A stretch of 64,000 nt of DNA from the NCBI GenBank assembly GCA_003221515.1, contig QHSI01000112.1, positions 1 to 64,000 on the forward strand, given 5' to 3'. Every line of letters begins with the position of its first letter. Within the stretch, counting starts at the first letter, position 1. Positions 32,422 through 56,570 of the stretch are shown one piece after another. Both the position numbers and the translations under genes were made by a program. Under the pieces are notes generated by a model that searched no databases, was not told the DNA's origin, and saw nothing but the letters and a program-made list of their open reading frames with translations. Source of the DNA: Candidatus Rokuibacteriota bacterium (GTDB taxonomy: Bacteria; Methylomirabilota; Methylomirabilia; Rokubacteriales; CSP1-6).

Positions 32422-33330
32422 TCAGTCGGCGCCGTGCCGCAGAAAATCCACGAGCGAGGCCGCGAGGGCATCGGGTGCTTCTTCCGGGAGAAAGTGGCCA
32501 CATGCGAGCGCATGGCCACGCACGTCGTCGGCCCACCGGCGCCAGACCGTGAGCGGCCCGTCGGCCAACGCTCCTTCCTGGTCTCCCCAGAGGACGAGCA
32601 CCGGGCACGTGATCCGACGATTGGCCGCGCGGTCCTGAGCGTCCAGAGCCCGATCGAGGTGAAAGGCCGCGCGGTAGTCCGCGCACACCGCGGCGATCAT
32701 CGCCGGGCTGAAGGCGCGCACGTAGACCGCGACCGCCTCGGCGGCGATCGCGCCCGGCGTCCCCGACCACGACTCGAGCGTGTGCCTCAGGAAGAACTCG
32801 GCGTTCGGCTCGAGGAGGCGCTCGGGTAACGGGGCCGGTTGGGCCAGGAAGAGCCAGGGATAGTAGTCGAGCGTCGTCGCGGTCGTCATGCGCTCGAACT
32901 GATCGACCGTCGGCACGACGTTGAGCACGACGAGCCGCTCGACCCGCGCCGGGTGATCGAGCGCCATCCGATAGGCGACTCGCGCGCCCCGGTCGTGCCC
33001 CACGACCGCGAATCGATCGAAGCCCAGATGCTCCATCAACGCGATGAGCTCGCTGGCCATCTCGCGCTTGCTGTAGCCCTCGCCTCGCGGTCCGCCGGGC
33101 GGTGCGACCGTGTCCCCGTAGCCGCGGAGATCCGGCGCGACGACCGTGTGAGTGCTGGCGAGCTGCGGCGCGACCTTTCGCCAGCAGTAGTGCGTCTGGG
33201 GAAAGCCGTGCAGGAGCAGTAGCGGTGACCCCGCGCCGCCTAGCACCAAGTGGTAGCTCACGTCGCCGACGCTGACCTGCCGAGGCTCGAGCCGACCGCG
33301 GCTGGCGGCGTCGCCGACGCACTGCCTCAC
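32422..33330 (-). CDS. Haloacetate dehalogenase/epoxide hydrolase-like alpha/beta-hydrolase
   Basis: 302 residues. The nucleophile motif is VVGHDRGARVAYRMALDHP with Asp113, not Ser. The oxyanion region is LLHGFPQTHYCWRKV, and the histidine lies in CGHFLPEEAPD. This combination is characteristic of haloacetate (fluoroacetate) dehalogenases and close epoxide hydrolases. The GTG start at 33330 overlaps the transketolase stop, making it the last gene of the long moeA-tldD operon. The substrate is unproven. Confidence 0.85.
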   Translation of the reverse strand: MRQCVGDAASRGRLEPRQVSVGDVSYHLVLGGAGSPLLLLHGFPQTHYCWRKVAPQLASTHTVVAPDLRGYGDTVAPPGGPRGEGYSKREMASELIALMEHLGFDRFAVVGHDRGARVAYRMALDHPARVERLVVLNVVPTVDQFERMTTATTLDYYPWLFLAQPAPLPERLLEPNAEFFLRHTLESWSGTPGAIAAEAVAVYVRAFSPAMIAAVCADYRAAFHLDRALDAQDRAANRRITCPVLVLWGDQEGALADGPLTVWRRWADDVRGHALACGHFLPEEAPDALAASLVDFLRHGAD

Positions 33331-34253
33331 CGGTTCAGGAACTTCTTGACGCTCGCGGCGATCCCCGCCGGGTCGAGGCCGTGCTTGGCGTAGAGGCCCT
33401 TGGCGTCGCCCGACTCGCCGAAGCCCTGCACGCCGAGTCGCTTGAGGGGCATCGGCAGCACGTCGGCGAGCGTCTCGGCGACTGCGCCGCCCAGCCCGCC
33501 GGCGATCGAGTGGTCCTCGACGGTCACGACGTGGCCGGTCCGGCCGACCGAACGCACCAGCGTCTCGTCGTCGAGCGGCTTGATGCACGCGGCGTTGATC
33601 ACGTCGGCCGTGATCCCGTCCTTCTCGAGCAGCTTCGCGGCCTCGAGGCAGTTGAACACGGTGCCGCCGGTGCCGATCAGCGTCACGTCGTGGCCCCGGC
33701 GGAGCACGAGCCAGCGGCCGAGCTGGAAGCGGTAGTCGGGCGGACAGACGGGCTCGAGGTTCTGGCGCGTCAGCCGGAGATAGAGCGGGCCCTGATGCTC
33801 GACCGCGTGGGCGATGACCTGCCGGGTCTCGAGCTCGTCCGCCGGCTGGATGATGCCGATGTTCGGGAGCGCGCGGATGCAGGCGATGTCCTCGAGCCCC
33901 ATCTGGCTGTAGCCGTCCTCGCCGATCGCGATGCCGGAGTGCGTCCCGACGATCTTCACGTTCGCGTTGGTGTAGGCCACCGAGATCCGGATGGTCTCGA
34001 AGCGGCCCACGACGAAGCACGCGAACGAGCAGGCGAACGGGATCTTGCCGGTGAGCGCCAGGCCGGCGGCGACCCCGACCATGTTCGACTCGGCGATGCC
34101 GAGGTTGAAGGCGCGGCCCGGGAACTTCTTGGCGAAGTTCACGGTCATGGTGGATTTCGACAGGTCGGCGTCGAGGGTGACGATGCGCTCGTCGCGGGCG
34201 CCGAGCTCGAGGAGCGCCTCGCCGAACGCCGCGCGGCTGGCCTTGGCCGGCAT
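33327..34253 (-). CDS. Transketolase, C-terminal subunit
   Basis: 308 residues with the pyrimidine-binding and C-terminal domains of transketolase. Visible are LDADLSKST, the family glutamate in FNLGIAESNMVGVAAGLAL, and THSGIAIGEDGYSQMGLEDI. With the N-terminal subunit upstream it makes a split, thiamine-diphosphate-dependent transketolase for C2-unit transfer in sugar phosphate metabolism. The ATGA overlap ties their synthesis. Split transketolases are common in archaea and some bacteria. Confidence 0.92.
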   Translation of the reverse strand: MPAKASRAAFGEALLELGARDERIVTLDADLSKSTMTVNFAKKFPGRAFNLGIAESNMVGVAAGLALTGKIPFACSFACFVVGRFETIRISVAYTNANVKIVGTHSGIAIGEDGYSQMGLEDIACIRALPNIGIIQPADELETRQVIAHAVEHQGPLYLRLTRQNLEPVCPPDYRFQLGRWLVLRRGHDVTLIGTGGTVFNCLEAAKLLEKDGITADVINAACIKPLDDETLVRSVGRTGHVVTVEDHSIAGGLGGAVAETLADVLPMPLKRLGVQGFGESGDAKGLYAKHGLDPAGIAASVKKFLNR

Positions 34254-35167
34254 CACTTCTTCCCCAGGGTGACGAGCTCGTCCACGATCGCGCGCGTCGC
34301 CGAGTCGGTCTTCAAGTAGTCCTCCCAACCGCCTTCGGTGACCCCGAGGATCTCGCGGATGCCGGCGATGGCCTCCGCCGGCTTCGGCGCCTTGCCGTGC
34401 CACTCGGGGTCGTTCTCCATGAACGAGACGCCCTTGCCCTTGACCGTGTGGGCGACCACGAAGGTCGGCACGCCGCGCGTGGCTTCCGCCTGATCCAGCG
34501 CCTTCGCGATCTGGGGGACATCGTGGCCGTCGATCTCCACCACCGGCCAGCCGAACGACTGCCACTTGGTGAGGACGGGCTCGAGGTCGAGGATCTTCGT
34601 CACGAAGTTGTCGAGCTGGATCTTGTTGTAGTCGAGGATCACCACGAGGTTGTCGAGCGGATGGCCCGGCTGACCCAGCTTCGGCGCCGACATCGCGGCT
34701 TCCCAGACCTGGCCCTCCTGGATCTCCCCATCGCCGAGCACACAATAGACGCGGGCCGCCGAGCCGCTCAGCTTGAGCCCGAGGGCGAGGCCGAGCGAGA
34801 TCGAGAGCCCCTGGCCCAGCGAGCCGGTGGCGGCCTCGATGCCCGGCAGCATGGTCCGGTCCGGATGGCCCTGGAGCGGCGAGCCGAGCTTGCGCAGCGT
34901 GATCAGCTGCTTCTCGGGGAAGTAGCCGGCCTTGGCCAGCACGCTGTAGAGCGCCGGCACCGCGTGGCCCTTGGAGAGCACGACCCGGTCGCGCTCCGGC
35001 CAGTCCGGACGCTTGGGATCGTGCCGCAAGCGCCCGAAGTAGATCGTGGTGAGGATGTCGATCACCGAGAGCGAGCCGCCGGGATGCCCGGAGCCCGCGT
35101 GGGCGAGCATGCGGAGGATTTGAACGCGGCATTCGCGCGCGATCGCTTCGAGACGCACCTCGGCCAT
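34253..35167 (-). CDS. Transketolase, N-terminal (thiamine diphosphate-binding) subunit
   Basis: 304 residues. The ThDP/metal motif is GDGEIQEGQVWEA followed by the Asn-containing DYNKIQLDN. The substrate/cofactor loop HAGSGHPGGSLSVIDIL and SKGHAVPALYSVL carry the conserved histidines. It pairs with the C-terminal subunit encoded next. The start ATG overlaps the TGA of the second tldE gene. Its cofactor matches the complete thiazole pathway at 8.3-11 kb. Confidence 0.93.
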   Translation of the reverse strand: MAEVRLEAIARECRVQILRMLAHAGSGHPGGSLSVIDILTTIYFGRLRHDPKRPDWPERDRVVLSKGHAVPALYSVLAKAGYFPEKQLITLRKLGSPLQGHPDRTMLPGIEAATGSLGQGLSISLGLALGLKLSGSAARVYCVLGDGEIQEGQVWEAAMSAPKLGQPGHPLDNLVVILDYNKIQLDNFVTKILDLEPVLTKWQSFGWPVVEIDGHDVPQIAKALDQAEATRGVPTFVVAHTVKGKGVSFMENDPEWHGKAPKPAEAIAGIREILGVTEGGWEDYLKTDSATRAIVDELVTLGKK

Positions 35168-36726
35168 CAGTCGAGGTCCTCCATGAATCCGGCGATTTCG
35201 TCCACGTGGACGGAGGTGACGGCGATCTCGGGCGCGTAGACGACCTCGTCCGCGGCCCACACGATCGTGCCCTTCACGTCCTTCGTGATGCCGGCGACGT
35301 TGTTGAGGAACGTGGCGATGGTGTCGTTGATACGTAGCGCGTTCGCCTTGATCGGCGCCGCGATCCGCCCATCGCGGATGATATAGGAGTCACCGACGAC
35401 GGTACAGGTGAAATCGCCGGCGCGCATTCCGTTGATCGGGTACGTGTACCAGATGCGCCCGATGTAGAGTCCGTTGCCGACACGCCGCAACAGCTCGTCG
35501 AGCGCCACCGGCTCGGCGCCCTCGATCACCACGTTGGAGGCGGCCACGCCGGGCGGGCTGTCGAACTGGCGCCCACCCCCGGCGCCGAAGCGGAACCCGT
35601 TGCGTGGCACCAGCGCCGTCTGCGCGGCCGGCCCGGTGGCGCCGAGCTTCTCCGCGAGGGCGGGATCGCGCAGCAACCGCTGGGTCTCGTACCAGCTCGA
35701 CAGGCAGCCGACGAGCACGCCTTGCTTGATCAGGTCGGTCCGGCCGGTCGGCAGCCCTTCGCACGTGATGCCCTTGGAGCCCATGAGCCCGGGCATCGCG
35801 CCGTGATCGTAGAGGCTCAGGAGGGGCGAGGCGACGGCGCGGCCGAGCTTGCCGAGAAACGGCGTGCTCGACGAGTAGAACGCGCCGGCGGTGCAGGAGG
35901 GGATCACGATGTTGTTGAGCAAGTCGGCCACGGGCTGGCGGCCGAAGACGACGGTGTAGATGCCCGACGGCACGCGCTCGCCGCCGATGGCGCCGATCGC
36001 GTTCTGGGCGGCCTCCACGCCGGCTTCGTCCGTGAAGTGATCGAGCCGCGTCCCCGTCGAGGCGCCCGAGCCCTTGGCCCCTCGCGATTCCACCATGGCG
36101 GTGGCGAACGCGGTGATGAGCGACGTCTCGTCTACTTGCGGGCGCGGCATCGCGGTCGAGGCGATCGCGATGCGCTCTCTCAGGATCGTGACGTCGCCGC
36201 CCAGGATCAGACCGAGCTGGCGCAGCGCTTCGTCGTCGCCCGCGAGCCCGGCCAAGCGCCCCGAGGCGATGAAGGTCCGCAGGGCGCCACCGGTGATCCG
36301 CCAGCCCGCGTCCACGAGGCTCGCGTCGTCGAGCTCCATCAGCCGGGGATCGTGATAGTCGGTGAGGGCGCGCGGAGCGGACGCCGCCGCCGGCAGGGAG
36401 ACGAACTCGGGATCGGCGACGGCCGCCTTGCGCGCCTTGGCCAGCGCGCGCTCGGCGCCGGCCGCCGTGAGATCGCTCGGCTCGCTGCCGAATCCGATCA
36501 GTCGTCCGCGCTCCGACCCGAAGACCGCCTGGATCCCGATGCCGTAGGACTCGGTCGACTTCGGCTCTTCGACGCCGTTGCAGGGGATGTGCGAGGTGTA
36601 GTTGAGGCGCGTCAGCAGCGCGGAGTTGGCCGAGGTGAACACCTCGGCCTCCTGGACGTCGGGCTGGCTCTTGACCAGCGCGAGCGCCGCTTCCGCGGCC
36701 TGCGCGAGCTCGCCGACGGTCTTCAT
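35167..36726 (-). CDS. Second TldE/PmbA-like protease partner subunit
   Basis: 519 residues, about 75 longer than the first TldE. The PmbA fold is seen in PRPQVDETSLITAFATAMVE, VVFGRQPVADLLNNIVIPS, and the C-terminal IGRIWYTYPINGMRAGDFTC. No HExxxH is present. It probably pairs with the TldD-like protein encoded two genes upstream, with the Sec-rhodanese between them. The longer, divergent sequences suggest a substrate different from that of the 15.8-kb TldD/TldE pair. It is 7 bp after the rhodanese stop. Confidence 0.88.
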   Translation of the reverse strand: MKTVGELAQAAEAALALVKSQPDVQEAEVFTSANSALLTRLNYTSHIPCNGVEEPKSTESYGIGIQAVFGSERGRLIGFGSEPSDLTAAGAERALAKARKAAVADPEFVSLPAAASAPRALTDYHDPRLMELDDASLVDAGWRITGGALRTFIASGRLAGLAGDDEALRQLGLILGGDVTILRERIAIASTAMPRPQVDETSLITAFATAMVESRGAKGSGASTGTRLDHFTDEAGVEAAQNAIGAIGGERVPSGIYTVVFGRQPVADLLNNIVIPSCTAGAFYSSSTPFLGKLGRAVASPLLSLYDHGAMPGLMGSKGITCEGLPTGRTDLIKQGVLVGCLSSWYETQRLLRDPALAEKLGATGPAAQTALVPRNGFRFGAGGGRQFDSPPGVAASNVVIEGAEPVALDELLRRVGNGLYIGRIWYTYPINGMRAGDFTCTVVGDSYIIRDGRIAAPIKANALRINDTIATFLNNVAGITKDVKGTIVWAADEVVYAPEIAVTSVHVDEIAGFMEDLD

Positions 36727-36733
36727 CGCGCCC

Positions 36734-37156
36734 TCAATGGGCGGGCGGCGCCTTGGGATTCTTGCCCTCGACCGGATAGCCCTTCGCGATCCAGCCGGGC
36801 AGCCCCTCCTCGAGGACCTGATGGTTCCGCCATCCCATCTGGTAGAGCATGTCGCTGGCCCCCCGGGCCAGGGCGTGCGGGCAGGTTCAATAGAACACCA
36901 CGGCGATCGACCTGGAGATCTCCCGCGCCCGGTCGGGCAGCGCGCGCAACGGGATCGAGCGCGCGCCGCGGATGTGGCTCTCGACGTACGAATCCCAGTG
37001 CCTGACGTCGATGATGTCCGCCCGGGTGTTGCGGTCGAGCAAGGCCTTGAGCTCCTCGACCTTGATGAAGCGCACCGGGTACTCCGGCGGCGCGGCCGGC
37101 GCCGCGCTGGCCAGCATCACGCCGGCGACGATCGCGGCGATCAGGCTGCCGCGCAC
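36734..37156 (-). CDS. Exported rhodanese-like protein with selenocysteine at the catalytic position
   Basis: 140 codons with one in-frame TGA (36889-36887) at position 90. Before it are a GTG start behind GGAGG, a signal peptide (IAAIVAGVMLASAAPAA) and the rhodanese first half (ADIIDVRHWDSYVESHIRGA, RSIPLRALP). The strand AVVFY leads into the TGA and then TCPHA. Many rhodaneses have YC-x-CP there, so the TGA replaces the catalytic Cys. The reading frame continues through the expected second half (VLEEGLPGWIAKGYPVEG) to TGA 36736-36734. A SECIS-like hairpin follows the first TGA. I read it as a periplasmic selenoenzyme for sulfur or redox transfer. A nonsense mutation is the alternative. Confidence 0.82.
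36855..36889 (-). promoter_or_regulatory. SECIS-like hairpin after the in-frame TGA
   Basis: Downstream of TGA 36889-36887, 15 nt are followed by a perfect 7-bp stem CTGGCCC (36871-36865) / GGGCCAG (36861-36855) closing a GGG loop. UGA-to-loop distance is 22 nt and the loop begins with G. Both meet the published bacterial SECIS consensus (16-37 nt, G among the first two loop bases). SelB would bind it. Confidence 0.65.
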
Positions 37157-37158
37157 CG

Positions 37159-38718
37159 TCAGCCTCCGATGACGCGCGCCCGCGTCCGCATCGTCGGCCC
37201 GCCGTTGCCCAGGCGCTTGGTCTGCATCGGTTGTCCCTTGCCGCAGTTCGGGATCGGGTAGACGCGAAAGTCGGAGCCGACCGCGTCGACGTTCACCAGG
37301 TAGTCGCGCGAGTCGGCGGCGATGCCGCCGTCGCGGTAGAGACGGCCGAGCTCGCCGTTCCGGATCTCGTAGACCCGGCGCGCCGAGATGCGGAAGTTCT
37401 CGCGGCTCTCGGCGATCGACGGCGTCCGGTGGCCCGCCACGTAATAGCCGTGGTCGACCTCCTTGACGATGTCCTCGGGCGCGCGCGCGCCGGCGTCGAA
37501 GACGGTGTTCGACATGCGGATCAGCGGCACCAGCGAGGCGTCGGTCGCCTTCCAGTGGCCGTTGGGCTCGCCGCCGAAGATCGCCGCCGTCTGCCGGCTG
37601 TTCATGAATCCCCGGAAGATGCCTTTGTCGATGTGGACCACGCGGCGGCCCGGCGTGCCCTCGTGATCGTACTTGTAGTGGCCGAAGCCCGGCAGCGCCG
37701 GGTCGGAGTACGCGGTCACCAGCGGCGAGGCCACGCGCCGGCCGACCTGATGCTCGCGGAGCCCGCCCAGCAGCCACGAGCGGCCCGCGTACGCGGTCTC
37801 CATCTTGAGGGCGCGGTCGAGCTCGACCGGATGACCGATGATCTCGTGCGAGAGGAGCGTGTTGTAATGCGGGTCGGTGACGACGACCACGTCGCCGTCC
37901 GAGGTCGGCAGCACCGGGGCCGCCGCGAGCTCCACGCCCTCGCGCGCCAGGCCTAGCGCGAAGTCGCGGAAGGCCGGGAAGGTGAGGGGCCGCTCGCTGG
38001 CGCCGTCGAGCAGGATCTCCCACCCGCGCTGGTGACCGATCGCGTCGTACAGGTCCTGACTCACCTCGCCCTGGACGGTCACGACACTGCAGGTGCCCTG
38101 GGTCAGCGCGAACGACTGGTCGATACGCGCGCCCTCGGTCGACACGAAGAGCTCGCGCGAGAGCTCGGTCAGCGTCGAGATGTAGTTGTACTTCACCCGC
38201 GCGTCTACCGCCGCGACCTGGCGCGAGACGTCGGTCGCGTAGCGCACCATCTCGGCCAGGTCGACCGTGCGGGGATCGACGCGATAGACGGCGGCCACGG
38301 TGTCCTCGAGCGCCGGGATCGGGTGCAGGTGTGTGTCGGCCAGCGCCGCGCCCAGCGCACCGTACTTCTCACGGGCGTCGGCCTTCATCTCGCCGTTCAC
38401 CATCGCCCGCCGATACGCGCGCTCGATCGCCTCCTGGATGATCCGGCCGAGCTCGGCGACGTCGGCGGTGCCGAGGACCTGCCCCACGTAGCCGGGCGCG
38501 ATCATCCGCTCGCCGGCGAGAACGCGGACGCCCAGCGAGAAGCCGTAGTCGTCGCCGGAGAACTTGGGCGTTCCATTCTCCGCGCCCGCGCCCTTGGCCT
38601 CGGTGACCTCGAGCCGCAGATCGGCGTAGCGCAGGTGCGGCAGGCGCCGCGCCTGGCGCACGCGCTCCTGCGCGATCGGCGTGACCGTGTCGATGAGGTC
38701 GACGGAGATCGGCGTCAT
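37159..38718 (-). CDS. Second TldD-like metalloprotease subunit
   Basis: 519 residues with a TldD metal motif HExxxH in LLSHEIIGHPVELD (His291 to His296). The C-terminal half shows FGHYKYDHEGTPGRR, GIFRGFMNSRQTAA and a cysteine in PNCGKGQPM. It is only distantly similar to the TldD at 15.8 kb. It is coupled to moeA by ATGA and ends 2 bp before the rhodanese start. With the TldE-like protein further downstream it should form a second heterodimeric peptidase. Confidence 0.9.
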   Translation of the reverse strand: MTPISVDLIDTVTPIAQERVRQARRLPHLRYADLRLEVTEAKGAGAENGTPKFSGDDYGFSLGVRVLAGERMIAPGYVGQVLGTADVAELGRIIQEAIERAYRRAMVNGEMKADAREKYGALGAALADTHLHPIPALEDTVAAVYRVDPRTVDLAEMVRYATDVSRQVAAVDARVKYNYISTLTELSRELFVSTEGARIDQSFALTQGTCSVVTVQGEVSQDLYDAIGHQRGWEILLDGASERPLTFPAFRDFALGLAREGVELAAAPVLPTSDGDVVVVTDPHYNTLLSHEIIGHPVELDRALKMETAYAGRSWLLGGLREHQVGRRVASPLVTAYSDPALPGFGHYKYDHEGTPGRRVVHIDKGIFRGFMNSRQTAAIFGGEPNGHWKATDASLVPLIRMSNTVFDAGARAPEDIVKEVDHGYYVAGHRTPSIAESRENFRISARRVYEIRNGELGRLYRDGGIAADSRDYLVNVDAVGSDFRVYPIPNCGKGQPMQTKRLGNGGPTMRTRARVIGG

Positions 38719-39911
38719 CAGAAGGGCTCGACCAGCACGGTGTCGCCCGCCGCCACGTCGCCGCGCTCCTCCTCGAGCACGATGAGGCAGTTGCCGGCCG
38801 TCATCGACGAGAGGATCCCGGAGCCCTGCGGCCCGGTGATGCGCGCCTCCCAGCGCCCGTCGCGCCACTGGACGATGCCACGCTTGAACTCGCGCCGCCC
38901 GGCGCGCTTGCTCATCGGCTCGAGCGCGGTCGCCTGGTACATCTCCGGGAACAGGCGGCGCCGCCCCGCCAGCTTGAAGATCGCCGGACGCAGGAAGAGC
39001 ATCGAGGCGAGCATGGACGCGACGGGATTGCCCGGCAGCCCGAAGAAGTGCGCGGACTTGATCCGCCCGAAGGCGAGCGGGCGCCCGGGCTGCATCGCGA
39101 CCTGCCAGAAATCGATCGCGCCGATCTCGGCCAGCACGTCCTTGACGAGGTCGAGGACACCGACCGAGACGCCGCCCGAGGTGACGACGATGTCGCCGAC
39201 CTCGGCGGCCTCGAGCAGCCGCGCGCGGAGCTCCTCGCGCACGTCGGGTACGATCCCGAGGTCGACCACGTCGCCGCCGTACTGCTCGATCGCGCCGCGC
39301 AACGTGAACCGATTGGCGTCGTAGATCTGGCCGGGCTTGCGCGGCGTGCCGGGCTCGACGACCTCGTCGCCGGTCGAGAGGAGCGCGACGCGCGGCCGCC
39401 GGTGCACCAGGACTTGCCACCGACCCAGGGAAGCGGTGAGCCCGAGCTCCTGCGGGCGCAGCACGGTGCCGCGCTCGACCACGATCGTCCCGGCCTGGAT
39501 GTCCTCGCCGCGCATGCGGACGTTCACGCCCTTCTTGATCGGGCCGACGCTCACGCGGCCGCCGCGTCGCTCGACGATCTCCTGGGGATAGACGGTGTCG
39601 GCGCCCTGCGGCATCGACGCGCCGGTCATGATGCGGACGGCCTGGCCCGGATTCAGCGCGCCGTCGAAGAGCGCCCCGGCGTGGAGCTCCGCCACCACGT
39701 CGAGCTCGCGCGTTCCGGTGGCCGGCACGTCGCCGCTCGCCACCGCGTAGCCGTCGACCGCGGAGTTGTCGGTGGGCGGCACGTCGAACGGCGCGCGCAG
39801 ATCTTCGGCCAGCACACGCTCGCGCGCGCGGGTGACGGCGAGGAGCTCGGGAGGTGTAGGCTGGGTGAACTGCGCGAGAATTTGATTTTGGCCGTCGCGC
39901 ACCGAAATCAT
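38718..39911 (-). CDS. moeA: Molybdopterin molybdenumtransferase MoeA
   Basis: 397 residues. It inserts molybdate into adenylylated molybdopterin. Motifs include PPTDNSAVDGYAVASGD, TGASMPQGADTVYPQE, the MoaB-like TSGGVSVGVLDLVKDVL and FFGLPGNPVASMLAS. ATG 39911 is chosen because TATAAT ends 6 nt before it, giving a leaderless mRNA; the frame is open further upstream, but that DNA is the divergent gene. It is the first gene of the seven-gene operon. No molybdoenzyme is encoded in the window. Confidence 0.93.
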   Translation of the reverse strand: MISVRDGQNQILAQFTQPTPPELLAVTRARERVLAEDLRAPFDVPPTDNSAVDGYAVASGDVPATGTRELDVVAELHAGALFDGALNPGQAVRIMTGASMPQGADTVYPQEIVERRGGRVSVGPIKKGVNVRMRGEDIQAGTIVVERGTVLRPQELGLTASLGRWQVLVHRRPRVALLSTGDEVVEPGTPRKPGQIYDANRFTLRGAIEQYGGDVVDLGIVPDVREELRARLLEAAEVGDIVVTSGGVSVGVLDLVKDVLAEIGAIDFWQVAMQPGRPLAFGRIKSAHFFGLPGNPVASMLASMLFLRPAIFKLAGRRRLFPEMYQATALEPMSKRAGRREFKRGIVQWRDGRWEARITGPQGSGILSSMTAGNCLIVLEEERGDVAAGDTVLVEPF

Positions 39912-39916
39912 GGCGA

Positions 39917-39923
39917 TATTATA
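39917..39923. promoter_or_regulatory. Overlapping bidirectional -10 boxes for moeA and the RDD gene
   Basis: Only 18 bp separate the two start codons. On the minus strand a consensus TATAAT (39923-39918) ends 6 nt before the moeA ATG. On the plus strand TATTAT (39917-39922) ends 7 nt before ATG 39930. Both mRNAs would be leaderless, and the two polymerases could not bind at once. Confidence 0.65.
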
Positions 39924-39929
39924 CGCGGC

Positions 39930-40427
39930 ATGACTGAGGGCCGCCCGGCGGGCTTCTGGATCCGCGCGCTCGCCGCACTCCTCGATTTCCTGGTCTTTCT
40001 CCTCGTGCAGTTTTCGTTCGGGCTCATCGGCGGCAGGGTGTGGGGCCCGGACGTCGCGAGCACGCCGACGTTCCGGCCGATCGTGGTGCTCTTCACGGTC
40101 GTCTTCGCCGGGGCGTACTCGACGCTGCTCCTGGCCCTGGGTGGTCAGACGATCGGCAAGATGCTGGTCGGCGTGCGCGTGGTCGCGGGCGAGGAGCTGC
40201 CGTCGATCGGCGCGGCCCTGCTCCGGTTCATCGGCTACTTCGTCTCCCTCGGGACGCTGACGCTGGGCTACGTGATGGCGGGACTCCGCCAGGACAAGCG
40301 CGCGCTCCACGATCTGATCGCGGGTACGCGCGTCGAGTACGTCTCGCGAGCCGATGCCGAGGCGCCCGTGGCGCCGCCGCCGGCCGCGACGGCCGACGCG
40401 TCGTCGAGCGCCTCGGGCCCCGTGTGA
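39930..40427 (+). CDS. RDD-family membrane protein
   Basis: 165 residues with three or four hydrophobic segments. The family signature is visible: GFWIRALAALLDFLVFLLV with the Arg and Asp at the membrane edge, then LGGQTIGKMLVGVRVV and DKRALHDLIAGTRVEY. The last 25 residues are Ala/Pro/Ser-rich and unstructured. Function of RDD proteins is mostly unknown; some are sodium/proton antiporters. It is the first gene of RDD-DUF309-SDR, each coupled by GTGA. Confidence 0.85.
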   Translation: MTEGRPAGFWIRALAALLDFLVFLLVQFSFGLIGGRVWGPDVASTPTFRPIVVLFTVVFAGAYSTLLLALGGQTIGKMLVGVRVVAGEELPSIGAALLRFIGYFVSLGTLTLGYVMAGLRQDKRALHDLIAGTRVEYVSRADAEAPVAPPPAATADASSSASGPV

Positions 40428-55320: not shown

Positions 55321-56570
55321 CGCCGCGAGACGTGGCGCGCGCCATCCTCCAGGCGGCGCTCGAGGCGGGCGACGTCGTCCCGCTCGTGCGCTCGCACCTC
55401 CCGATCAGTCGCGGGCGCGTCCTCGTCCTCGGCTGCGGCAAGGCCAGCGGCGCCATGGCCGCCGCCGCCGAGGAAGTCCTGGGCGATCGCGTCGCCGGCG
55501 GGTTCGTCGTTGTCAAGGACGGCTGCGCGGTCCCGCTCGGGCGCATCGAGCTCGCCGAAGCGGGCCACCCCGTGCCCGACCAGCGCGGCCTCCACGCCTC
55601 GGCGAGGCTTCTCGAGCTGGCCCACGGCGCCGGGGAGGACGATCTCGTCCTGTTCCTCGTTTCCGGCGGCGGCTCCGCGCTCACGCCGGCGCCGGCCCCG
55701 CCGATCACACTTGCCGAGAAGCAAGAGGTCACGCGGCTCCTGCTGGCCTCGGGCGCGGCGATCGGCGAGCTCAACGCGGTCCGCAAGCACCTCTCGCGCT
55801 TCAAGGGCGGTCAGCTCGCCCGCGCGGCGTGGCCGGCGGCCGTTCTCACGCTCGCCCTGTCCGACGTGATCGGCGACCCGCTCGACGTGATCGCGTCCGG
55901 GCCCACCGCGCCCGACCCGACGACCTTCGCCGATGCGGCGGACGTGCTGGCGCGCCGAGGCGTCGAGGGCCGGGTGCCGGCGTCGGTCAGGGACCGCCTG
56001 CAGGCCGGGCTCAGAGGCGACCTCGAGGAGACGCCGAAGGCGGGCGATCGCGTCTTCGGTCGCGTCACCAACGTCGTCGTCGGCAACAACCGCCTGATCA
56101 CCGACGCGGCCGTCGCGGCGGCCACGCGCCTCGGCTACCGCCCGTACTTCCAGACGCGCGAGCTCGAGGGCGAGGCGCGGGACGTCGCCCGCGATCTCGT
56201 CGCGCGCGCGCGCCGGCTCGAGCCTCCCGCGTGCCTGGTCGCGGGCGGCGAGACCACCGTGACCGTGCGCGGCCGGGGAACGGGCGGACGCTGCCAGGAG
56301 TTCGCGCTGGCCGCCGCGCTCGAGCTCCAGCCGAAGGACGGGATCACGGTGCTCGCCGCCGGTACCGACGGCTCCGACGGCCCGACCGACGCGGCCGGCG
56401 CGATCGTCGACGCCGCCACGCTCGGCCGCGCCGCTCGGGCGGGCGTGGACGCGCGCGCGGCCCTCGAGGACAACGACGCGCATCGATGCCTGCGATCGAG
56501 CGGCGATCTGCTCGTCACCGGCCCGACGCGCACGAACCTGCTCGACCTCTACGTCCTGCTGCGCGCGTAG
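55317..56570 (+). CDS. Glycerate 2-kinase (MOFRL/GckA family)
   Basis: 417 residues from GTG 55317. The family pattern is clear: VLGCGKASGAMAAAAEEVLG, LFLVSGGGSAL, LSDVIGDPLDVIASGPTAPD and the C-terminal MOFRL domain (GTGGRCQEFALAAALEL; GTDGSDGPTDAAGAIVD). It phosphorylates D-glycerate to 2-phosphoglycerate. Pairing with an aminotransferase recalls serine-glyoxylate type routes, where hydroxypyruvate is reduced to glycerate, but the reductase is not here. Confidence 0.92.
   Translation: MTPRDVARAILQAALEAGDVVPLVRSHLPISRGRVLVLGCGKASGAMAAAAEEVLGDRVAGGFVVVKDGCAVPLGRIELAEAGHPVPDQRGLHASARLLELAHGAGEDDLVLFLVSGGGSALTPAPAPPITLAEKQEVTRLLLASGAAIGELNAVRKHLSRFKGGQLARAAWPAAVLTLALSDVIGDPLDVIASGPTAPDPTTFADAADVLARRGVEGRVPASVRDRLQAGLRGDLEETPKAGDRVFGRVTNVVVGNNRLITDAAVAAATRLGYRPYFQTRELEGEARDVARDLVARARRLEPPACLVAGGETTVTVRGRGTGGRCQEFALAAALELQPKDGITVLAAGTDGSDGPTDAAGAIVDAATLGRAARAGVDARAALEDNDAHRCLRSSGDLLVTGPTRTNLLDLYVLLRA

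Follow-up and report, generated by a model that had tools for sequence, protein, structure and literature searches.

The window analyzed here, a 64,000-nucleotide stretch of contig QHSI01000112.1 from a Candidatus Rokuibacteriota genome, carries between the tldD and tldE genes, on the same strand, a short gene that contains an in-frame UGA and is predicted to encode an exported rhodanese with selenocysteine (Sec, U) in its active site (Table 1). The gene has 140 codons, starts with GTG (37156-37154), and ends with TGA (36736-36734). Its translation across codon 90 reads VRGSLIAAIVAGVMLASAAPAAPPEYPVRFIKVEELKALLDRNTRADIIDVRHWDSYVESHIRGARSIPLRALPDRAREISRSIAVVFY-U-TCPHALARGASDMLYQMGWRNHQVLEEGLPGWIAKGYPVEGKNPKAPPAH, with the strand VVFY leading into U and followed by T-C-P-H-A-L. 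The Pfam rhodanese domain (PF00581) matches residues 41-132 and therefore spans the TGA, with an E-value of 1.1e-14 and a score of 55.2 bits against a gathering threshold of 22.2. An earlier note on this DNA had described a single frame with two rhodanese halves split by a TGA at codon 90, with the TGA standing at the position of the first Cys in a YC-x-CP motif. The coordinates and the PF00581 match agree with the first part of that description, and the second is borne out by the Cys-containing homologs, which read YC-x-CP. The Shine-Dalgarno sequence and signal peptide of that note can also be recognized by eye, as a GGAGG and a putative signal peptide-like N terminus that ends in an A-x-A type site.

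Table 1. Features of the rhodanese locus (positions in the window)
Feature	Position	Strand	Remarks
tldD (PmbA/TldD family), directly upstream	37159..38718	minus	2-nt gap between its UGA stop and the start codon of the rhodanese gene
Predicted Sec-containing exported rhodanese gene, 140 aa	36734..37156	minus	GTG start, in-frame UGA, stop UGA
Putative signal peptide, VRGSLIAAIVAGVMLASAAP...	37097..37156	minus	Recognized by eye in the sequence; N-terminal helix of low confidence in the predicted structure
In-frame UGA, candidate Sec90	36887..36889	minus	Catalytic-Cys column of the rhodanese loop; Cys in homologs
Cys92 codon TGC	36881..36883	minus	Invariant partner, two residues past Sec
bSECIS-like hairpin CUGGCCC-GGG-GGGCCAG	36855..36871	minus	Spacing of 22 nt between the UGA and the loop (36864-36862)
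tldE/pmbA, directly downstream	35167..36726	minus	7-nt gap to the rhodanese gene

The predicted structure of the 140-residue protein (mean pLDDT of 87, pTM of 0.76) has rhodanese domains as its top fold matches in the PDB, such as 3nhv (E-value of 3.9e-9, rmsd of 1.5). Residue 90 lies between the strand formed by residues 85-89 and the helix formed by residues 95-106, which is, in this model, the place of the rhodanese nucleophile.

The position between tldD and tldE is shared by nearly all copies of the gene in Rokubacteria. Among 38 independent loci, tldE is found downstream in 37 and tldD is found upstream in 36, the exceptions being one locus whose tldD side is truncated at a contig boundary and another (L039) that lacks both neighbors. 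In most readable members of the host family that do not carry the rhodanese gene, tldD and tldE are directly adjacent (e.g., L136, L141, L147, and L148), which indicates insertion or loss of the gene as one unit at this site. The wider gene order in Rokubacteria, seen in the window at 33327-40310 on the minus strand, is moeA, tldD, the candidate Sec rhodanese, tldE, and the N- and C-terminal halves of transketolase, and the moeA-tldD-tldE order is kept also where the rhodanese gene is absent. In the Binatota-type loci, the rhodanese gene lies beside genes that, from a reading of their sequences, resemble those of ABC transporters. To our knowledge, the products of tldD and tldE are not exported enzymes, so this neighborhood points to no particular function for the rhodanese.

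Conservation of the UGA codon and of the sequence beyond it

Of the 57 genomes sampled from the host family (the host included), 39 carry the version of the gene with the in-frame TGA; according to their named records, these represent Candidatus Rokuibacteriota. It is also found in three Binatota-type copies, L063 and the similarity-placed L116 and L117, the last two of which come from single-contig assemblies. In every copy read, the TGA occupies the identical column, within the motif Y-U-(T/A/G/S)-C-P-H-A-L in Rokubacteria and YU(A/T)CP(R/H)HL in the Binatota-type copies, a recurrence far in excess of what chance would produce. Homologs outside this clade have Cys at the same column, in motifs such as YCACP, YCGCPH, and YCACPH (L075-L078, L118, and L119), giving the Sec/Cys pairing that a selenoprotein should show. 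The earlier note had looked to orthologs with TGA or Cys at this column for support, and to other codons or frameshifts in close relatives for evidence to the contrary. The pattern found is TGA throughout the clade and Cys in the more distant homologs, none of the clade copies read having Cys, a different codon, or a frameshift at this column.

The distance from the UGA to the stop codon is 51 codons in 27 of the 39 Rokubacteria loci and 45 to 53 codons in the others, always in frame. The median pairwise dN/dS ratio is 0.42 in the mature part of the protein upstream of the TGA versus 0.20 to 0.23 downstream of it, and beyond the end of the gene, pN and pS in this frame are nearly equal (0.595 and 0.643, respectively). 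The low ratio after the TGA and its loss past the end of the gene indicate that the part following the TGA is translated and constrained. The marks by which selenoproteins are recognized are accordingly seen here: the TGA is kept in orthologs, with purifying selection continuing past it, and the in-frame UGA falls in a column that is Cys in homologs. These genome comparisons establish the potential of the rhodanese gene to encode Sec as well as its conservation. A separate observation concerns L039 (genome G049) and L040 (genome G047), near-identical rhodanese loci that come from different genera and lack the usual tldD and tldE neighbors; their near-identity is likely to be a binning or assembly artifact in one of the two genomes.

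Selenocysteine machinery and the hairpin downstream of the UGA

The host genome (5.1 Mb, 95% complete, a draft of 191 contigs) encodes SelA (485.6 bits), SelB (359 bits), and tRNA-Sec, all on contig C184, and SelD (339 bits) on contig C150. The tRNA-Sec gene (selC) scores 69.8 bits and is also reported by ARAGORN as SeC with the anticodon tca. All four components that the earlier note had proposed to look for are thus present. The selD gene (L019, G000:C150:27763-28707) itself carries one in-frame TGA, and the host selenophosphate synthetase is, judging from that codon, probably a selenoprotein too. Among 62 relatives, selB and tRNA-Sec were found above the cut-off in 55 and 51 genomes, respectively, those missing them being draft genomes; with the machinery near-universal in the clade, its presence or absence provides no usable contrast with that of the rhodanese gene. 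The tRNA-Trp seen in the host has the anticodon CCA. The window also contains a predicted tRNA-His with the anticodon atg (ARAGORN; 55421-55505, plus strand), which is unusual for a bacterium and may be a spurious call or a degenerate tRNA.

Both tldD and the rhodanese gene terminate in UGA codons that act as stops in close vicinity, so Sec insertion at codon 90 must depend on local context. A candidate for such a context is the hairpin formed by nucleotides 19-35 counted from the UGA, which begins 15 nt downstream of it. The bacterial SECIS (bSECIS) model calls for a stem of 4 to 16 bp, a loop of 3 to 9 nt with an early G and, as a rule, G or U as the next base, a spacing of 16 to 37 nt, and a minimum free energy of at most -7.5 kcal/mol (PMC13188914). 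The hairpin in the window conforms to this model, with a 7-bp core stem, the loop GGG, a spacing of 22, and an energy of -12.8 kcal/mol. The same holds for 35 of the 41 copies, the other six falling short in energy only (-6.6 to -7.4 versus -7.5 kcal/mol). Since this test is a loose one, passed also by 501 of the 1,400 TGAs (36%) of this GC-rich window, passing it is weak evidence, and the hairpin alone is not diagnostic; the copy in the window showed no folding excess over simple shuffles.

The stronger signal comes from codon usage. Among the 97 six-codon windows, excess synonymous identity peaks at codons +6 to +11, which encode the hairpin (0.518, against a background mean of 0.091 and standard deviation of 0.102), a value reached in none of 20,000 random six-site sets. 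Gly +9 is encoded by GGG in 32 of 32 core rows, despite GGC being the commoner Gly codon, and Arg +8, in the loop, is encoded only by CGG or CGT, never by CGC, the commonest Arg codon. In the core set, CTG, TCC, GGG, and AGC are fixed wherever their amino acids occur, and GCC is nearly fixed. In the Binatota-type copies, the top C-G pair is replaced by A-U and the loop is GUU. Covariation is thin, with a single pair changed on both sides, and RNAalifold did not recover the hairpin as a consensus from the 60-nt alignment, probably owing to the Ser codon TCC, which disrupts one central pair in roughly half of the rows. It is therefore synonymous conservation, and not covariation, that carries the case for the hairpin. 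Hairpins of similar shape were seen by eye 3' of the TGA in other candidate Sec rhodaneses.

Several other readings of the in-frame UGA have to be weighed against these data. The gene could be an ordinary Cys rhodanese truncated by a nonsense mutation or a miscall, given that a gene intact but for a lone in-frame stop resembles the product of a recent nonsense mutation and that the host genome is a draft of many contigs. However, a pseudogene or sequencing error is refuted, as the TGA recurs in 39 Rokubacteria genomes and in three of Binatota type, two of the latter single-contig, and the purifying selection downstream of the TGA, with the frame intact throughout, argues in the same direction, leaving this explanation a negligible probability. 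A designed stop, with the N-terminal half as the product or the two halves made separately, is what gene callers would report, and the first half alone does form an open frame. Separate half-proteins were nevertheless rejected, because the rhodanese fold requires both halves and the codon concerned is that of an active-site residue that is Cys in homologs. The near-constant and always in-frame distance from the UGA to the stop, and a downstream half constrained no less than the upstream one, also make a designed stop very improbable. Read-through by other means, whether under a code with UGA as Trp or by near-cognate suppression, would give an equal conservation footprint and has a comparably slight chance. 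A UGA=Trp code was rejected, since UGA is the normal stop of both tldD and the rhodanese gene, the homologs have Cys and not Trp at this column, and the tRNA-Trp anticodon is CCA, while a tRNA-Sec with UCA is present; the hairpin signature, moreover, is a requirement of Sec insertion. Judged from the sequence comparisons, the product of the gene is almost certainly a Sec-containing protein.

Relation to other rhodaneses and known selenoprotein families

In a 2026 review, rhodanese selenoproteins are listed in five forms, with the motifs UxxS, UxxG, CxU (NF041203), UxxG, and UxxxxU (TsoB), and the UxC motif of the window protein is not among them (PMC13188914). The best-scoring curated family is NF041203 (rhodanese_LYCAU, "rhodanese-related (seleno)protein," form 3 of the review), whose members likewise are rhodaneses with a C-x-C type site and one Sec. 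The window protein scores 47.9 bits (40.9 bits in the genome search), below the cut-off of 115, and has Sec in the first position of the motif (UxC), whereas NF041203 has it in the second (CxU; PMC13188914). In forms 1 (UxxS), 2, and 4 (both UxxG), which belong to PF00581, Sec is probably at the position of the catalytic Cys, as in the window protein (PMC13188914), but their motifs, by which they were compared, give no Cys two residues past Sec, unlike the U-T-C-P of the window protein. TsoB (NF045694), which is similar to a rhodanese/DsbD fusion, shares a rhodanese-related domain with Sec; its match to the window protein is weak (22.8 bits, below the cut-off of 805), and its 572-position fusion model has two Sec residues (UxxxxU), in contrast to the single domain of 140 residues with one Sec described here. 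The nearest Cys homologs found are the Cys-x-Cys rhodaneses L075-L081, L118, and L119, which have the domain in common and in several cases the YC-x-CP motif, but carry Cys for Sec and are encoded away from tldD and tldE.

Same-phylum relatives with a Cys-x-Sec arrangement are encoded in the host genome itself (contig C86) and in genomes G042, G005, G082, and G058. The host protein (L100, G000:C86:107162-109506; YCTUPDEAT) is similar to NF041203, scoring 74 bits against the cut-off of 115. Relatives with Sec-x-Sec were detected in G068, G093, G083, G071, G076, G070, and G069 and, outside the class, in G126. In these eight genomes, the rhodaneses (L083, L084, L086, L087, L094, L096, L097, and L101) have the motif YUTUP, with two TGAs two residues apart, and are on that basis probable double selenoproteins; the UxU motif is absent from the text of the 2026 review (PMC13188914). 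One further rhodanese with a hydrophobic N terminus (L103, G034:C39) has its TGA elsewhere within the active-site loop, in YCGGPNU. In a tree of 43 rows, the UxC proteins form one group (support of 95/65) and the CxU proteins another (98/90), with the UxU proteins placed with the latter, so the Sec arrangement appears to be a stable trait of each subfamily.

Proposed mechanism and significance

In rhodaneses, a persulfide is carried by the Cys residue of the active-site loop. In the proposed mechanism, SelB and tRNA-Sec would decode UGA90 as Sec, directed by the downstream hairpin, and the UGAs that end tldD and the rhodanese gene would be read as stops. The product would be a small exported single-domain rhodanese whose active-site loop begins with the nucleophile, Sec90. 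Outside the cytoplasm, Sec90 would attack a sulfane-sulfur or disulfide substrate, giving a selenopersulfide or a mixed selenosulfide; Cys92 would resolve this intermediate, with sulfide being released or sulfur passed on, and the Se-S bond left behind would be reopened by a periplasmic thiol reductase, closing the cycle. Export, substrate, and redox cycle are what we infer for this protein, and the formation of a selenopersulfide with resolution by Cys92 outside the cytoplasm is proposed tentatively, at a little under even odds. The periplasmic role in sulfur or redox exchange that the earlier note suggested would be reasonable. For the explanation as a whole, Sec decoding of UGA90 together with the proposed chemistry, a probability of roughly 0.88 can be given, a figure weighted mostly to the coding claim.

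The chemistry could also be of another kind. A selenoprotein that does not handle sulfur, in which the UxC pair serves to bind or transfer selenium or a metal, or functions as a plain thiol-disulfide oxidoreductase, has an appreciable chance of being the correct description, if one well below even. The loop lacks the Arg-rich cradle of the C-R-x-G-x-R type seen in thiosulfate rhodaneses, C-x-C type motifs are known in redox and metal-binding proteins too, and the 2026 review lists UxC for a family of Cu/Zn efflux transporters and for a thioredoxin-like protein (PMC13188914). On the other hand, both the fold and the placement of Sec match those of the rhodanese nucleophile, and the gene neighborhood offers no support for metal handling.

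Somewhat probably, the exported UxC rhodanese, which Rokubacteria encode between tldD and tldE and which recurs in Binatota, constitutes an unlisted selenoprotein family that makes up, with the related groups, a natural series in which one C-x-C active site exists as Cys-x-Cys, Sec-x-Cys, Cys-x-Sec, and Sec-x-Sec. A groundwater study, as cited in the 2026 review, reported 63 predicted selenoproteins in a Methylomirabilota MAG (PMC13188914), so an abundance of selenoproteins in this phylum is already known, and that survey, as far as the citation goes, may have picked up the UxC gene without describing it. Standard gene calling would truncate the gene at the active site, so that the enzyme would be misread wherever it is present; at stake is a conserved, predicted exported enzyme of Rokubacteria, a large uncultured soil group. 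The four Cys/Sec arrangements of one motif would provide natural enzymes in which to compare the benefit of selenium at either position, and the UxC rhodanese would be a further sign of an unusual wealth of selenoproteins in Methylomirabilota.
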